A DNA stretch of 64,000 nucleotides, from NCBI RefSeq assembly GCF_004134825.1, contig NZ_SDPN01000001.1, positions 1 through 64,000 on the forward strand, written 5' to 3'. Positions 12,195-18,933 of this stretch are shown here, piece by piece. The notes under the pieces are model-generated. The model was not told the origin of the DNA. It searched no databases and was given only the letters and a program-made list of their open reading frames with translations. Numbering within the stretch: position 1 is the first letter of the stretch; each line of letters begins with the position of its first letter. Origin of the DNA: Agromyces albus. Lineage in GTDB: Bacteria; Actinomycetota; Actinomycetes; Actinomycetales; Microbacteriaceae. A program made the translations under genes and the position numbers.

Positions 12195-14186
12195 TTACGC
12201 GACGGCCAGGTCCGCCTCGACTGAATCGAGAGCGAGACCCGTGATCGTGCTGTCCTTGAATGCGGTGATCGGGTTGATCCGTACGCGGTCGCCCTCCGGG
12301 GAAAGACCCAGCGCGGCGGTGAGTACCGCGATGGATGCGGCGGCCGACCAGGCCTGGGGGCGACAGGCTGCCGGGTACGGCACGGGCAGGGCGACTTCCG
12401 CCGACGGGTCGCCGGAGTGAAGTTCCGGGACGCGATAGTCGAATGCGGCGGCGGTGCGCAGCAGCCCTTCGATGAGTCCTGCCGCGTCTTCGCCGCGACC
12501 TTCGCTGGCCAGACCGAGCACCGCGATCGCGGTGTCGTGGGCCCAGACGGAGCCGCCGTGGTAGCTGAGGGGCCAGTAGCCATCGGACTCCGTCGACAGC
12601 GTTCGCAAGCCATACCCCGAGTCGAGGGCGGGGTCGGTGATGCGGTCGACGACGAGCTCAACCTGTGCGGCATCGAGGATGCCCGTTCCGAGCAGATGCC
12701 CGACATTCGAGGTCGACGTGTCGATGGGGTTCTTGGCGGCATCGAGCGCCACCGCAAGATAGGGGCCTGTGGAGTCCTCGACCCAGAACTTCTCGTGGAA
12801 CCGGCTGCGCAGCCGCGCTGCCCACCTGTGCCACTCCTCGGCGCCGGGCACGCCGAAGGCATTGAGGAGTTCCGCTCCGCGAAGCGCAGCCTGGTAGGCG
12901 TACCCCTGCACCTCCACGAGGGCGATCGGGCCTTCGGCCAGCGAGCCGTCTCGCCATTGCACCGAGTCGTCGGAATCCTTCCACCCTTGGTTCGCCAGAC
13001 CTCGGCCGGAGGCGTCGATGTACTCGAGAAGCCCATCCCCGTCGGCGTCACCGTGATCCCGCATCCATGCAAGTGCGGATTGCAGGTTGGGAAGCAACGC
13101 TCGCACTTCCGCGTCGGGCAGGCCCCAGTCCCAGGCCTCGGCGAGCAGCGTGATCCAGAGCGCGGTCGCGTCGACGGTTCCGTAGTAGAGCGGTGGGATC
13201 CGGCCACCGTCTTCGTTGAGCGCGACGGTGGCCCGGCGCAGTTCATGCATGATCTTGCCCGGTTCCTCGGCGGTGCTCTCGTCGACCTCGACGCCCTGCA
13301 GCCCCGCGAGGACACGCAAGGTGTCGCCCGCGAGCTTGGTGCCGAGCGGGAGCATGAATCGCGCCGTCCAGATCGAGTCACGACCGAACAACGTGAAGAA
13401 CCACGGTGCGCCCGCGGCGATGAACTCCGCCTCGGGTTGGCGCACGGTGGTCATGCGGAGCCCGTCGAGGTCTGCGAGCGCTCGGTCGATCCACAGGGCG
13501 AGTCGTGAATCGACGCCTTCGATCGAAGGCGCGCTCCAAGGGGCCGGGCCGTCGACACCCTGAACGACGGCCTGCGCGTCGTGCGCTTCGAGCCGCCAGG
13601 AGACCTGTGCGTGCCCGTTGGGTGGCACCTCGAGCTCTGCGGAGAGACGGATGACTCCGTCGCCGAACTCCAGGTCGAGGCCGGTGGCACGGAGAGTGGC
13701 GTGGACATGTTCGAGGCTCCAGGCGGCAACGCCCTCTACGACCGCGACAGCGGGGGCATCCGCCCGGTCGCCGATGCCGAGTTTGACGTGGTCCACCGGC
13801 GTCGCGTCGGGATGGAGTTCGATCACGATGGCGGCGGTGACGGTGACAGCTCGTCGGTTGCGGAGAGTGAGGGTGTCGGTGGCCCCCCAGCTTTCGACGG
13901 TTCGATCGACGATGAGCCGAACGGCGGGGTCTGGCGACGGGTCGTCGAGCATTCGCAGCAACGAGGAGATCCGCACGGTGTTGCTGCGCTCGCCCCCACC
14001 CGAGAGGTACTCGGGCACCTGGCCGTTCACGGTCAGGCCGATCCCGCGCAGAAGTCGCGTGTCGGAGTGATAGACGCCGTGGACGGCGGCCGGATCGACA
14101 CTCCCGTCGGGGGCGGACCAGAACTGCGTCGGTGCGCGCAGGACCATGATCGCTTCGTGAAGCAACGGCTGGAGAGGTGCGGTCAC
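12195..14186 (-). CDS. Glycogen-debranching-type glycoside hydrolase (amylo-alpha-1,6-glucosidase-like)
   Basis: 663 residues with a GTG start at 14186 and GGGAG 6 nt upstream. The N-terminal about 210 residues form the GDE_N_bis beta-sandwich (FWSAPDGSVDPAAVHGVYHSDTRLL). The rest is an (alpha/alpha)6 barrel with WFFTLFGRDSIWTARFMLPLG, LNEDGGRIPPLYYGTVDATALWI and NQGWKDSDDSVQWRDGSLAEGPIALVE, the usual catalytic-groove motifs. It likely trims alpha-glucans or a related glucoside inside the cell. It is divergent from a LacI regulator and a sugar ABC importer, with a shared operator between them. Confidence 0.87.
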   Translation of the reverse strand: MTAPLQPLLHEAIMVLRAPTQFWSAPDGSVDPAAVHGVYHSDTRLLRGIGLTVNGQVPEYLSGGGERSNTVRISSLLRMLDDPSPDPAVRLIVDRTVESWGATDTLTLRNRRAVTVTAAIVIELHPDATPVDHVKLGIGDRADAPAVAVVEGVAAWSLEHVHATLRATGLDLEFGDGVIRLSAELEVPPNGHAQVSWRLEAHDAQAVVQGVDGPAPWSAPSIEGVDSRLALWIDRALADLDGLRMTTVRQPEAEFIAAGAPWFFTLFGRDSIWTARFMLPLGTKLAGDTLRVLAGLQGVEVDESTAEEPGKIMHELRRATVALNEDGGRIPPLYYGTVDATALWITLLAEAWDWGLPDAEVRALLPNLQSALAWMRDHGDADGDGLLEYIDASGRGLANQGWKDSDDSVQWRDGSLAEGPIALVEVQGYAYQAALRGAELLNAFGVPGAEEWHRWAARLRSRFHEKFWVEDSTGPYLAVALDAAKNPIDTSTSNVGHLLGTGILDAAQVELVVDRITDPALDSGYGLRTLSTESDGYWPLSYHGGSVWAHDTAIAVLGLASEGRGEDAAGLIEGLLRTAAAFDYRVPELHSGDPSAEVALPVPYPAACRPQAWSAAASIAVLTAALGLSPEGDRVRINPITAFKDSTITGLALDSVEADLAVA

Positions 14187-14229: not shown

Positions 14230-14285
14230 TTGACATTGAGGTCGAACTCGGCGCAACATTAGCAAGATTTGATAGATCGATCAAA
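14230..14285. promoter_or_regulatory. Divergent promoters with LacI-type operator
   Basis: An 18-bp near-palindrome, TTTGATAGATCGATCAAA (14268-14285, 16 of 18 positions symmetric), lies in an AT-rich island between the debranching and LacI genes. Plus-strand TTGACA (14230-14235) with a weak CAACAT 18 nt on would place the operator at the transcription start. On the minus strand TTGATC (14284-14279) and TAATGT (14262-14257) are 16 nt apart, so the operator would cover the -35. The LacI protein of 14341 is the obvious ligand. Confidence 0.7.
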
Positions 14286-14340
14286 AAATTGCGGTCGTGG
14301 CTGTCCCAGGCCCTGACGCTCAAGCCAAAGGAGGCGGGAG

Positions 14341-14682
14341 ATGACGCGGATGCCGACCGTCGAAGACGTCGCTCGCGTCGCGCAGGTGTCGCGACAGACC
14401 GTCTCGAACGTGATCAACAGCCCGTCGATCGTGCGAGAGGCCACCCGTTCCCGGGTCCTCGCCGCCATCGACGAGCTGGGGTACCGACCCAACGCCGCCG
14501 CGGATCAGGAGATCACGCGGATGCCGACCATCCAGGACGTCGCTGGTCTCGCACACGTGTCGAAACAGACCGTCTCGAACGTGATCAACAGTCCCTCGAC
14601 CGTGAGGGAGGCCACGCGTTCCCGGGTCCTCGCTGCGATCGACGAACTGGGCTATCGACCCCACGCGTCCGCGCGTCGGCTG
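14341..14682 (+). repeat. 171-bp tandem duplication encoding the LacI HTH
   Basis: 14341-14511 is repeated as 14512-14682. The frame is kept because 171 is a multiple of 3. The copies have diverged, mostly at third positions and at a few recognition-domain codons, so this is not a recent assembly artefact. Similarity falls off after the GYRP codons. Confidence 0.9.
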
Positions 14683-15564
14683 CGAACGAGGAAGTCCTCG
14701 ACGATCGGCGTGCGGCTCGCCCCCCTCCCGCCCGATGGCATCTCCAGCGCGATACTCGACCGGTTCGTGCGCAAACTCACCGAGCAGGCCGACGCGCGAG
14801 ACCTGCGTGTGATGCTCTTCACTGCCGGCGATCCCGTCGAGGAGATCGATCGCATCCGCCGCCTGCATGAGGGGTCGGATGCTGACGCATTCGTGCTCTC
14901 GGCGACTGAATACGGCGACCCTCGCATCGCGTGGCTGGTCGAGCAGGACATACCGTTCGTGTCATTCGGACGACCTTGGGATGCGAAGACCCCTCACCAT
15001 CGCTGGGTGGATGTCGACGGCCGCGCCGGAGTCGGCGAAGCCGTGCGCCATCTGCGAGCCCATGGCGCGCAACGCGTCGGGTGGATCGGATGGACCGAGA
15101 CTTCGGGCAACGGAAACGAACGCCGGTCGGGCTGGGAGGCCGAATCCGGCCTGAGCGCGACGGATCAGCGGACGTACTCGCGAAGGGCCCCCGACGACGT
15201 GACCGAGGGCACTCGGTGCGCCATGGAGCTCCTCTCCCTGCCCGAGCCACCGGATGCGTTGGTCTGCGCGAGTGATTCGCTCGCGCTCGGCGCGATGACC
15301 GCTGCCCGCATGTCCGGCCGGCCTGCACTGCCCGTCATCGGTTTCGACGACACACCGATCGCTGCCGCCGTCGGCCTCTCGAGTGTCGAGCAGCCCTTGG
15401 ACGAGGTCGCAGCGACAGCACTCGCACTCCTGTTCGGGCCGGAAGGCGATGACGTGCTTCCGAACCCGGGCGACGACGAGGAGCCGACGAATCGGCTCCT
15501 CGCGCCCCGACTCGTCGAGCGCAGGCCTAGCCACCTGCAACTCGACGCGACAACCGGCGACTGA
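14341..15564 (+). CDS. LacI-family repressor with two tandem helix-turn-helix domains
   Basis: 407 residues, about 60 longer than a normal LacI repressor. The start is firm: AAAGGAGG ends 6 nt before the ATG. Residues 1-57 are a complete LacI HTH ([20 protein letters not shown]), and residues 58 onward repeat it (IQDVAGLAHVSKQTVSNVIN). About 42 of the first 50 residues are identical and the recognition helices differ only by Arg/Lys. Only the second copy runs into a hinge (HASARRLRTRKSSTIGV) and the periplasmic-binding-protein-like sugar domain (about 120-400). The DNA repeat unit is 171 bp. It sits before a sugar ABC importer and is divergent from the debranching enzyme, so it should control alpha-glucoside use. 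An internal AGGAG and ATG at 14521 could give a one-HTH form. Confidence 0.93.
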   Translation: MTRMPTVEDVARVAQVSRQTVSNVINSPSIVREATRSRVLAAIDELGYRPNAAADQEITRMPTIQDVAGLAHVSKQTVSNVINSPSTVREATRSRVLAAIDELGYRPHASARRLRTRKSSTIGVRLAPLPPDGISSAILDRFVRKLTEQADARDLRVMLFTAGDPVEEIDRIRRLHEGSDADAFVLSATEYGDPRIAWLVEQDIPFVSFGRPWDAKTPHHRWVDVDGRAGVGEAVRHLRAHGAQRVGWIGWTETSGNGNERRSGWEAESGLSATDQRTYSRRAPDDVTEGTRCAMELLSLPEPPDALVCASDSLALGAMTAARMSGRPALPVIGFDDTPIAAAVGLSSVEQPLDEVAATALALLFGPEGDDVLPNPGDDEEPTNRLLAPRLVERRPSHLQLDATTGD

Positions 15565-15593: not shown

Positions 15594-16820
15594 GTGAGGA
15601 CATCACAATGGAGTGCCGCCGTTGCCGCGGCGGGACTCATCACCACCCTAGCCGCGTGCTCTCCCGGCGGGGGAGGCGGCGGGGAGGCGAGCGGGCAGGA
15701 GCTCACCATGCTCATCGCCGCGTCCGGCGACGCCGAGAGCACCGCAGTACAGGAGGCGCTCGACGCATGGGGCGCGGAGACCGGCAACACTGTCGAGCTC
15801 ATTCTCGCGAACGACCTCGTGCAGCAGCTCGGCCAGGGCTTCGCGGGCAACGAGCCGCCCGACCTCTTCTACATGCCGTGGGACCAGTTCCAGACATACG
15901 CCGGGCAGGGCTTCCTCGAGCCCTACGCCGAGGACCTCGCGAACGCCGACGAGTTCCTCCCGGCTCTGCGGGAGCAGTTCACCTACGACGACCAGTTCTA
16001 CTGCGCGCCGAAGGACTTCTCGACTCTCGGCCTCCAGATCGACACCGACGCATGGGCGGCCGCAGGGCTCACGGATGCGGACATCCCAACCGATTGGGAC
16101 GGACTCACGGCCGCTGCGCAGAAGCTCACCACGCCGGAGACGGTCGGCCTTTCGTTCGGCCGCGAGTACGCACGCCTCGGCGTGTTCATGAACCAGGCCG
16201 GCGGCGAGCTCGTCGATGATGACACCGTCACCGCAGACTCCCCCGAGAACGTCGCGGGCCTCGAGTACGCCCAGTCGCTCATCGACGCCGGCGCGCTGAA
16301 GTTCCCGCAGGATCTCGAGGCGGGCTGGGCCGGCGAGGCGTTCGGCCTCGGCAAGGCCGCGATGGTCATCGAGGGACCCTGGATCAACGGTGCCCTGCGA
16401 AACGACTTCCCCGACCGCAAGTACATCAGCGTGGAGCTCCCCGCGGGTGCGGGAGGCCAGTCGACCTTCGCATTCAGCAACTGCTGGGGCATCCCGGCCG
16501 GATCGCCCACGCTCGACGTCACGACCGACCTCGTCGAGTACCTCACGAGCGACGAGCAGCAGCTCGCGTTCGCCGAGGGGTTCGGCGTGATCCCGTCGAC
16601 CGAGTCGGGTTCCGCGGCGTACGCGGAGCAGTTCCCCGAGAACGCGGCGTTCGTCGCGGGCGTCGACTACGCGGCGAGCCCGGTCGCCTTCGCCGGGGCG
16701 GCCGCCGCGATCACCGACTTCAACTCGCAGCTGGAGGCGGACGGACTCACCGACCCCGCCGGCGTGCTCGGCGGCCTGCAGACCAACCTACAGGCCGCGC
16801 TCGACGAGGCGAACGGCTGA
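15594..16820 (+). CDS. Sugar ABC transporter substrate-binding lipoprotein
   Basis: 408 residues with a GTG start at 15594 and AAGGG 7 nt upstream. It has a lipoprotein signal peptide with lipobox LAAC (Cys22), then a Gly-rich linker and a family-1 extracellular binding protein fold (LTMLIAASGDAESTAVQEALDAW, IPTDWDGLTAAAQKLT, AAMVIEGPWINGAL). It captures a mono- or oligosaccharide, probably an alpha-glucoside given the debranching enzyme nearby. It is followed 2 bp later by its permeases. Confidence 0.9.
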   Translation: MRTSQWSAAVAAAGLITTLAACSPGGGGGGEASGQELTMLIAASGDAESTAVQEALDAWGAETGNTVELILANDLVQQLGQGFAGNEPPDLFYMPWDQFQTYAGQGFLEPYAEDLANADEFLPALREQFTYDDQFYCAPKDFSTLGLQIDTDAWAAAGLTDADIPTDWDGLTAAAQKLTTPETVGLSFGREYARLGVFMNQAGGELVDDDTVTADSPENVAGLEYAQSLIDAGALKFPQDLEAGWAGEAFGLGKAAMVIEGPWINGALRNDFPDRKYISVELPAGAGGQSTFAFSNCWGIPAGSPTLDVTTDLVEYLTSDEQQLAFAEGFGVIPSTESGSAAYAEQFPENAAFVAGVDYAASPVAFAGAAAAITDFNSQLEADGLTDPAGVLGGLQTNLQAALDEANG

Positions 16821-16822
16821 TC

Positions 16823-17980
16823 ATGAGCGCTTCTGCGCAAGGGCCTCGTCGCGGCGGTGGCATCCGCCGCGGCGAGGCCCGCGCGGGCTGGCTCTTCGTC
16901 ACGCCCGCCGTCGGCCTCGTCGTGGTGTTCCTCGTCATCCCGATCGTGCTCGCCTTCTGGGTGAGCTTCAGCGACTGGAACGGCTTCCAGTCACCGCTGA
17001 ACCCCCGGGTCAACTTCGTCGGGCTCGAGAACTACGCCGCGATCACCGTCGATCCCGGCCTCGACCAGCAGAACTTCGGCACCTCGGTGCGCAACAACCT
17101 CTGGTACGTGGTCTTCGTGGTGCCGCTGCAGACGATCATCGCGCTGCTGCTCGCCGTGCAGGTCAACCGCGCGGTGCTGCGCGGCCGCGGCTTCTTCCGC
17201 ACCGCGTTCTATTTCCCGTCGGTCACTTCGACCGTCGCGATCGTGATCGTCTTCCAGTTCCTGTTCACGGCTTCCGGCGCGGTGAACGCGGTGCTCGCGT
17301 TCTTCGGCATCAGCGGCCCCAACTGGTTGAACGACCCGAACGGGATCTTCCACAACATCGCCGCGGGCGTCGGGATCACCAGCCCACCGCCCGCGCTCGA
17401 GGCGGCCGGTCCGCTCGGCGTCACCTGGTGGGACTGGCTCGCCGGCCCCTCGGTCGCGATGAGCTCGCTCATCGTGCTCGCGATCTTCACGACGTCGGGC
17501 ACCTTCATGCTGCTCTTCCTCGCGGCCCTGCAGAGCATCGGCGCCGAGATCGACGAGGCGGCGCTCATGGACGGCTCCGGGCCGATTCGGAAGTTCTTCT
17601 CCATCACACTGCCGATGCTGCGGCCCACGCTCTTCACGGTGCTGACCCTCGGCCTGATCGGCTCCTGGCAGGTGTTCGACCAGATCTACGTGCTCGGCGG
17701 CGCCACCGCGGGCGGCACGATCTCGACCCCGGCCTTCCTCGCGTACAACACCTCGTTCGACGAGCTGAAATGGGGCCAGGGCGCCGCGATCGCGTTCATC
17801 CTGTTCGTGTTCATCATCCTGCTGACCCTCCTGCAGCGCTGGATCCTGAAGGAACGCGAACCCGGCAGGCGGCGCAGGATCTCCAGGGAACCGGATGCCG
17901 CGGCCGGCTCCGTCGGCGCCGACCCCGCCGATCGCGCGCTCCCCTCGGGCGCCGGCACCCACGAAGGGAGCCGGTCGTGA
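16823..17980 (+). CDS. Sugar ABC transporter permease (MalF type)
   Basis: 385 residues starting 2 bp after the binding protein stop. About six membrane helices are visible (LFVTPAVGLVVVFLVIPIVLAFWVSF is the first), with a larger-than-usual insert between helices 3 and 4. The EAA loop EIDEAALMDGSGPIRKFFSITLPMLRP contacts the ATPase. The C-terminus is a basic, charged cytoplasmic tail. The ATPase is not encoded here, so a shared MsiK-like ATPase elsewhere is likely, as is common in actinobacteria. Confidence 0.9.
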   Translation: MSASAQGPRRGGGIRRGEARAGWLFVTPAVGLVVVFLVIPIVLAFWVSFSDWNGFQSPLNPRVNFVGLENYAAITVDPGLDQQNFGTSVRNNLWYVVFVVPLQTIIALLLAVQVNRAVLRGRGFFRTAFYFPSVTSTVAIVIVFQFLFTASGAVNAVLAFFGISGPNWLNDPNGIFHNIAAGVGITSPPPALEAAGPLGVTWWDWLAGPSVAMSSLIVLAIFTTSGTFMLLFLAALQSIGAEIDEAALMDGSGPIRKFFSITLPMLRPTLFTVLTLGLIGSWQVFDQIYVLGGATAGGTISTPAFLAYNTSFDELKWGQGAAIAFILFVFIILLTLLQRWILKEREPGRRRRISREPDAAAGSVGADPADRALPSGAGTHEGSRS

Positions 17981-18933
17981 CCACGAAGACACCCGTCGAC
18001 GCGCCGAGCGAGCCGCGAGATGCGGCACCCGTCGCGACGCGAGCCGATGCGGCATCCGCGATCCCGAAGCCCACGAAGACCGCCAAGCGCCGCCGCAGCA
18101 TCCCGCTGCGCGTGCGTTCGGGGATGTGGCTCAGCTACCTGATCCTCGTCGGGCTCGCGCTGGTCTACATCTACCCGTTCATCGTGTCGGTGTCGGCGTC
18201 GTTCAAGACCGATGCCGAAGCCACGCAGAACCCGCTCGCGATCGTGCCCGAGACGATCACGTTCGCGGCCTACGAGCGCCTGTTCGGCGACGTGCCGTTC
18301 GGACTGTGGGCGGGCAACACGATCCTGATCTCGGTGATCGTGACGCTCGGACGTGTGTTCTTCGACTCGCTCGCGGGCTATGCGCTCTCGCGGCTGAAGT
18401 TCCGCGGTCGCACGATCGTGTTCGTGGGCTTCATCGCAGTGCTGTCGGTGCCAGGCGTGGTGCTGCTCATCCCGCGGTTCCTGATCCTCCAGCAGCTCGG
18501 GCTCTACGACACGTACGCGGGCATGATCATCCCGCTGCTCTCCACGGCGGCGGGCGTGTTCATCATGAAGCAGTTCTTCGACTCGATCCCCGACAGCGTC
18601 GAGGAAGCGGCCCGCATCGACGGCGCCGGATCCTTCCGTACGTTCTGGACGATCGTGCTGCCCATGGCGCGGCCCGCGCTCGTGACGCTCTTCATCCTGA
18701 GCTTCCAGGGGTCGTGGAACGAGCTCGGTCACTTCATCGTGTCGCGGCAGAGCCCCGAGCTGAACACCCTCACGACCGGTGTCGCGTCGCTCGTGTCGGG
18801 GCAGCTCGGTCAGGGCAACCAGTTCCCGTTGCAGCTCGCGGCGGCGGTGCTCATGACGATCCCGGTGGCGATCCTGTTCTTCGTGTTCCAGCGCCGCATC
18901 ATGAACACCACGGCGGGCGCCGAGAAGGGCTAG
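17977..18933 (+). CDS. Sugar ABC transporter permease (MalG type)
   Basis: 318 residues. The GTG at 17977 overlaps the previous stop by 4 nt (GTGA), with GGGAG 6 nt upstream. After a hydrophilic about 45-residue N-terminus it has six membrane helices and an EAA loop (SVEEAARIDGAGSFRTFWTIVLPMARP). It pairs with the MalF-like subunit. It is the last gene of the importer operon and is followed by a strong hairpin. Confidence 0.92.
   Translation: MTTKTPVDAPSEPRDAAPVATRADAASAIPKPTKTAKRRRSIPLRVRSGMWLSYLILVGLALVYIYPFIVSVSASFKTDAEATQNPLAIVPETITFAAYERLFGDVPFGLWAGNTILISVIVTLGRVFFDSLAGYALSRLKFRGRTIVFVGFIAVLSVPGVVLLIPRFLILQQLGLYDTYAGMIIPLLSTAAGVFIMKQFFDSIPDSVEEAARIDGAGSFRTFWTIVLPMARPALVTLFILSFQGSWNELGHFIVSRQSPELNTLTTGVASLVSGQLGQGNQFPLQLAAAVLMTIPVAILFFVFQRRIMNTTAGAEKG

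Follow-up and report, generated by a model that had tools for sequence, protein, structure and literature searches.

The stretch of Agromyces albus DNA analysed here (the window, 64,000 nucleotides) encodes a 407-residue repressor of the LacI/GalR family, the product of the open reading frame at 14341-15564 on the forward strand, which carries two LacI helix-turn-helix (HTH) domains in tandem. We conclude that it is a real, rare and apparently selected variant of the family. From the domain count a dimer would present four HTHs, and we give about an even chance to the explanation that one of the two heads of each subunit, tethered and without a hinge, extends to a half-site shifted 4 bp outward.

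The first 342 nt of the reading frame are made up of two in-frame copies of a 171-nt unit (14341-14511 and 14512-14682) that are identical at 141 of 171 nucleotides and at 44 of 57 amino acids, and the likeness ends at either edge of the repeat. The Pfam LacI family, PF00356, matches the protein in two distinct segments (122.8 bits overall, against a cut-off of 27), with the recognition helices SRQTVSNVIN in copy A and SKQTVSNVIN in copy B. A preliminary description of this DNA had reported two complete, near-identical HTHs in tandem produced by a 171-bp in-frame duplication, and the repeat comparison and the Pfam matches bear out both its coordinates and its account. It was equally right that only the second copy is joined to a hinge and sugar-binding domain. 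The hinge residues RRL, kept in copy B, are replaced by DQE in copy A, and a normal hinge continues from copy B only; its conserved alanine and leucine are present there as A111 and L114 and are missing from copy A, in which the leucine has become glutamate. Residues A111, R112 and L114 are invariant in alignment A2, which comprises 68 of 315 proteins, 62 of its rows being single-HTH. A single effector core, with both PF13377 and PF00532 above cut-off, makes up the rest of the 407 residues. The Shine-Dalgarno-like AAAGGAGG lies 6 nt 5' of the first ATG (14341), implying that copy A is inside the likely reading frame. The features of the locus are collected in Table 1.

Table 1. The tandem-headed lacI gene and its surroundings, in window coordinates.
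Feature	Positions	Strand	Basis
Glycoside hydrolase-like gene (GDE_N_bis and MGH1-like GH), divergent	12195..14186	-	Domain matches; syntenic in L081-L083
Promoter-like TTGACA (14230) and CAACAT (14254)	14230..14259	+	Corresponding elements align in the two nearest relatives
Candidate operator TTTGATAGATCGATCAAA, half-sites 6 bp apart, sole CG off-centre at 14278-14279	14268..14285	+	Half-site scoring
Shine-Dalgarno-like AAAGGAGG of the long form	14327..14334	+	Sequence
HTH-A (residues 1-50), complete LacI HTH without its own hinge	14341..14490	+	Pfam stretches; model; closeness to single-HTH relatives
Linker between heads (residues 51-61, NAAADQEITRM), degenerate hinge, overlapping the start of the second repeat unit	14491..14523	+	RRL to DQE; pLDDT
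Possible internal start: AGGAG (14507-14511), 9 nt, ATG (14521)	14507..14523	+	Sequence alone
Second 171-bp repeat, comprising HTH-B and the first part of the hinge (residues 58-114)	14512..14682	+	Repeat comparison; Pfam best stretch 63-107
HTH-B hinge (residues 107-116, PHASARRLRT), conserved leucine L114	14659..14688	+	Alignment A2; model
Effector-binding/dimerisation domain (Peripla_BP_3 / Peripla_BP_1)	14689..15561	+	Pfam; PDB fold comparison
ABC transporter substrate-binding protein, probably for a sugar	15594..16820	+	Domain matches; synteny
ABC permease 1	16823..17980	+	Domain matches; synteny
ABC permease 2, start approximate	17977..18933	+	Domain matches; synteny

An AlphaFold model built from a 68-sequence alignment (mean pLDDT 86.8, pTM 0.69) predicts that HTH-A folds as a complete HTH, with three helices at residues 7-14, 18-26 and 33-46 and block mean pLDDT values of 85-94. 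Confidence falls below 50 at residues 55-58 of the linker between the heads, which is no proof of flexibility, and also at residues 109-115, where the hinge of HTH-B is modelled with a helix at 110-115. The nearest solved folds in a comparison with the PDB are those of LacI-family repressors, including CcpA, PurR and RbsR.

The tandem form is rare. A database of about 5.8 billion clustered proteins was searched, the 8000 candidates sharing most words being scored and the best 120 of 5032 matches listed; the best relative among those listed was P0002, a 409-residue protein from a JGI metagenome contig that is 93% identical over its full length and has the same tandem layout. The next five among the matches listed (P0004-P0008) are single-headed, 348-362 residues long and 70-76% identical. 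Three of 60 same-genus genomes gave a match at E<=1e-100, copy A being covered only in that of the window genome, and a query comprising both HTHs, run over 396 genomes of the order, gave matches at E<=1e-18 in four genomes, with both heads covered in two of these, the window genome and G510. Of 396 genomes of the phylum scanned with a profile, 72 had a match; among the matches listed, only the window's spans the whole model, and none but the window's starts before model position 26. For these order and phylum scans, and for a scan of the class described below, the top 11 candidates per genome were scored (the top 4 in another scan), and the genome sets overlap. A scan of genome contigs returned 14 distant relatives (28-51% identity in the best segment) and no orthologue.

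The order of five genes at this locus (hydrolase, lacI, substrate-binding protein and two permeases) is kept in all three relatives checked. The substrate of the transport operon is probably a sugar, and the NCBIfam sugar matches for the substrate-binding protein are all below cut-off. The putative operator is placed between the divergent genes, just 3' of TTGACA-N18-CAACAT, an element that a consensus promoter scan did not report. As part of the best explanation we propose that the protein is a functioning local repressor of this transport operon.

It is in the geometry of the operator that the tandem gene departs from its orthologues. Pairs of TTTGAT/ATCAAA half-sites were scored at spacings of 0-8 in the ∼150 bp upstream of each gene. 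The tandem gene scores no more than 10 at spacing 2, and at spacing 6 it has a perfect TTTGAT-AGATCG-ATCAAA (12/12). This is the only such pair, at spacings of 0-8, in the window, and it forms an even 18-bp near-palindrome with AT at its centre and CG off-centre. For comparison, 25 single-HTH orthologue loci were fetched, of which L053 was dropped, having no HTH motif on its piece. Each of the remaining 24, all with a readable HTH, has one HTH motif in frame, compared with two in the window, and in all 24 the best putative operator is found at spacing 2 and resembles TTTGAT-CG-ATCAAA (the relatives' site being TTTGATCGATCAAA), although for L050 the best score is tied with spacings 7 and 8. The scores at these loci are 12 in twelve loci, 11 in six, 10 in two and 9 in four. 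When the upstream stretch of the window was shuffled as mononucleotides, keeping base content alone, none of 2000 shuffles reached 12, 41 reached at least 10 and 415 at least 9, so that the six weakest single-HTH loci carry less weight.

If a lone odd operator were drawn at random, the chance of its falling on the tandem gene would be 1 in 25. Since spacing is usually constant within a LacI-family orthologous group and flexibility is rare, according to the portion of the family survey by Ravcheev et al. that we draw on (PMC4052901), a change in the sole tandem-headed orthologue is notable. Protein and operator may have changed together, as seen at one site. The extended operator envisaged in the preliminary description is upheld to this extent, that the half-sites lie 4 bp further apart than in the best site of all 24 single-HTH loci (one of them tied); the observation concerns a single locus. 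In an automatic alignment, the upstream DNA of the tandem gene matches that of its two nearest relatives (L009 and L010) as far as TTTGAT, with no clean 4-bp gap placed after it, and TTGAC lies equally far from the gene (-114, compared with -113 and -114 in those relatives), so that GATC-unit slippage would be the simplest way for the spacing to have widened, yet an unsure one.

An exact TTTGAT-N0-12-ATCAAA occurs elsewhere in the genome only as TTTGATCACCATCAAA, at spacing 4 on contig C57, and the bridging of separate sites, also suggested earlier, finds no support in the sequence. Inspection by eye for a symmetrical arrangement of outer half-sites, by which four heads could be accommodated at a single site, turned up CGCAA (14252-14256) and TTGCG (14289-14293), which flank the operator at unequal distances and were taken as chance. 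Some single-HTH relatives have a second operator-like site further on, at 13 bp (L028), 24 bp (L030) or 57-66 bp (L031-L034), and none was seen in the upstream stretch of the window. A 13-bp peak for overlapping LacI sites appears in the part of the survey cited above (PMC4052901).

The explanation that we favour can be set out as follows. As a result of the in-frame duplication, each subunit would carry two reading heads belonging to one specificity class. HTH-B would retain the hinge and the normal link to the effector-sensing core, and HTH-A, lacking a hinge, would be suspended on a presumably flexible linker of 11-13 residues. The half-sites would have moved 4 bp further apart, most simply through slippage, TTT-GATC-GATC-AAA becoming TTT-GATC-GATC-GATC-AAA, followed by one substitution to GATA; either the protein or the operator may have changed first. 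A spacing of 6 would be beyond the distance read by a rigid single-headed dimer. HTH-B with its hinge could hold the CG-side half (CGATCAAA) while the tethered HTH-A reached TTTGAT, 4 bp beyond the placement of the rigid dimer, a displacement of about 14 Å in B-DNA geometry. Through what would presumably be the simultaneous use of A and B, repression would survive or tighten, and the effector would release the repressor, as family knowledge suggests. The E. coli protein CytR has one HTH per subunit, and its tolerance of spacing is reportedly due to a flexible linker, by the title of a cited paper. By analogy, CytR is a LacI-family protein which gives a family precedent for spacing tolerance, its half-site spacing being described as variable in the part of the account used here (PMC3454398). 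CytR differs in acting with CRP; here the extra reach would come from the added HTH.

A second reading, which we consider possible although doubtful, is that the extra head serves avidity only. HTH-B and its hinge would sit on ATAGATCGATCAAA as an ordinary LacI dimer, the outer TTTGAT would be a relic, and HTH-A would add non-specific or flanking DNA contacts that compensate for the weakened left half-site. This CG-centred register is indeed present within the site and agrees with the relatives' consensus at 12 of 14 positions, although matches with up to three mismatches are expected about 0.5 times per window by chance. Copy B keeps its hinge, and a central CG is the family rule, being present in the motifs of 1173 of 1303 LacI-family transcription factors, compared with 49 having another centre and 29 degenerate, in the portion of the survey consulted (PMC4052901). 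Against the avidity reading, the outer half-site pair is a perfect 12/12 match, and the recognition residues of HTH-A are kept under apparent selection beyond the needs of non-specific contact.

The possible internal start within the linker raises another reading, that two isoforms are made: a long one initiated at 14341 and a short, single-headed one initiated at the ATG at 14521, which could form mixed dimers with different operator ranges. The arrangement AGGAG-N9-ATG is in frame, the surrounding DQEITRM is identical in P0002, and a single-HTH relative, P0007, starts with MPT. The AGGAG stems from Gln-Glu codons, however, and may be there by chance. The entry for this repressor in the protein database, P0003 (350 residues), begins at codon 58, a gene call by which copy A is hidden from the database; the codon there is ATC, a poor start. 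We think that two isoforms are unlikely.

Comparison with P0002 gives the duplication a minimum age. Between the window protein and P0002 the two A copies are identical at 52 of 57 positions, as are the two B copies, compared with 44 of 57 between A and B in each species (the effector cores share 275 of 293 residues). The divergence of the copies thus predates the split between the window gene and P0002, and the copies show no recent homogenisation here. An origin of copy A from a paralogue finds no support, the genome's other 38 matches being at most 46% identical to the query, compared with 77% between A and B. Computed from short stretches, dN/dS between the window copies is 0.163 at positions 4-50, the HTH core (dS 0.47), and 0.342 over all 57 codons, the lost hinge included. 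The statement in the preliminary description that the duplication has been kept for some time agrees with both its age and this low ratio.

Of the two heads, it is the first that is closer to single-HTH relatives. Copy A of the window is nearer than copy B to 61 of 62 of these, with one tie (mean matches 36.5/47 for copy A and 32.6/47 for copy B), and in P0002 copy A is the better match to 58, the worse to two and tied for two; in one row counted as single-HTH, that of P0125, the columns of copy A contain 25 residues of an N-terminal extension. Residue R18 is kept in all 62 single-HTH relatives and in copy A, and is Lys in copy B of the window and Arg in copy B of P0002. Both heads look selected. 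A neutral or decaying duplication, with copy A a harmless decoy, might be suggested by the rarity of the architecture and by the loss of the hinge in copy A, and a decoy role had been entertained in the preliminary description. We judge it highly improbable, however, since copy A is more strongly conserved than copy B and dN/dS is low, which argues against a decaying decoy; the architecture is, moreover, retained in P0002, and a similar form occurs in Kineococcus. An assembly or frameshift artefact, conceivable in a draft genome of 111 contigs, is so very unlikely that it can be set aside, since there are 30 differences between the copies over 171 nt, the metagenome protein P0002 shares the layout (which also disposes of a one-off frame error), and the frame is uninterrupted and has its own ribosome site.

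The preliminary description had proposed a search for other LacI proteins with two HTHs, and such proteins exist beyond P0002. The protein from G510, P0195, and three named Kineococcus proteins, P0196-P0198, are also tandem-HTH LacI proteins (best 120 of 1859 matches listed). They share with the window protein the order of a hinge-less HTH-A, a linker (11-12 residues in the Kineococcus type), HTH-B, hinge and core, and a near-equal repeat period (55-56 residues, compared with 57); they differ in the recognition class, VGTVSN, and probably in having a separate origin. A tandem match of the P0195 type occurs in one of 11 genomes of its genus (E<=1e-60) and one of 12 of its family (E<=1e-70). In the reverse direction, with the two heads of P0195 as query over 394 genomes of the class, the window gene was the sole match at E<=1e-16. 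The dN/dS between the copies of P0195, calculated from its DNA, is 0.168 (dS 0.67). Among relatives of the Kineococcus tandem proteins, the gene calls for P0199 and P0202 begin right at the HTH and inside it, respectively, and may hide a copy A.

Over a 41-residue HTH core the two window copies share 34 residues with one another and 21-23 with the Kineococcus copies, and the paired copies inside one Kineococcus protein share 31-35. The copies of the two lineages are therefore less alike than the copies within each, which is most simply read as separate duplication, so that the tandem arrangement would have had two origins, as seems probable. A possible alternative is a single old duplication homogenised in each lineage, from which identical numbers would result. 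The Kineococcus copies show no clean sorting by copy, and HTH-A is without hinge sequence in both lineages. The operator of a Kineococcus-like tandem gene could not be identified, the locus L080 having nine CG-centred near-palindromes in 16 kb. One CG-centred near-palindrome, GATCCCACC|GGGGGGATC at L080:8000-8018, lies across the start of the tandem gene and is a possible operator. Tentatively, and as an idea that we do not yet find probable, head duplication may be a recurrent route by which LacI proteins escape from fixed spacing, giving a four-headed repressor with a new operator geometry.

Compared with the LacI/GalR family at large, the window protein shares HTH-B, the hinge, the core fold, a local site at the promoter of a transport operon and a near-palindromic operator; it differs in the extra hinge-less HTH in front and in a spacing of 6 without central CG, compared with 2 with central CG. 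The cre-var sites of clostridial CcpA are likewise inverted repeats whose spacers are unusual and which are read by a LacI-family protein, and a domain duplication is not described in the part of that report considered here (PMC5263246). LacI-LacI fusions also have two LacI HTHs per chain, but in these a separate hinge and effector domain accompany each HTH, and the two recognition helices are unlike, in contrast to the single core found here. Four such chains, P0122, P0124, P0126 and P0128, of 684-713 residues, comprise two complete LacI repressors with helices VSRQTVSN and VGVGTVSR among the matches listed (8000 candidates scored, best 120 of 5921 matches listed); P0124 is named as Streptosporangiaceae, and such chains could act as single-chain heterodimers. 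The same search gave P0158 (312 residues), in which a LacI HTH and hinge run into a glycoside hydrolase domain (PF04685), either a gene fusion or a chimeric contig. In the literature searched, mostly outside subscription journals, we found no published description of a tandem LacI HTH.

LacI is a textbook repressor, and the reading geometry of LacI proteins has been treated as nearly fixed, with one head per subunit, a hinge on the central CG and a usually constant spacing. Here a natural two-headed form, which probably arose twice, stands beside single-headed orthologues on the same operon and has a changed operator, and the co-evolution of protein and operator thereby becomes testable as a matter of one domain and 4 bp. 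At least one gene call in the databases begins only at copy B and so conceals the form. The tandem form also suggests a design idea, that of repressors with longer recognition sites.
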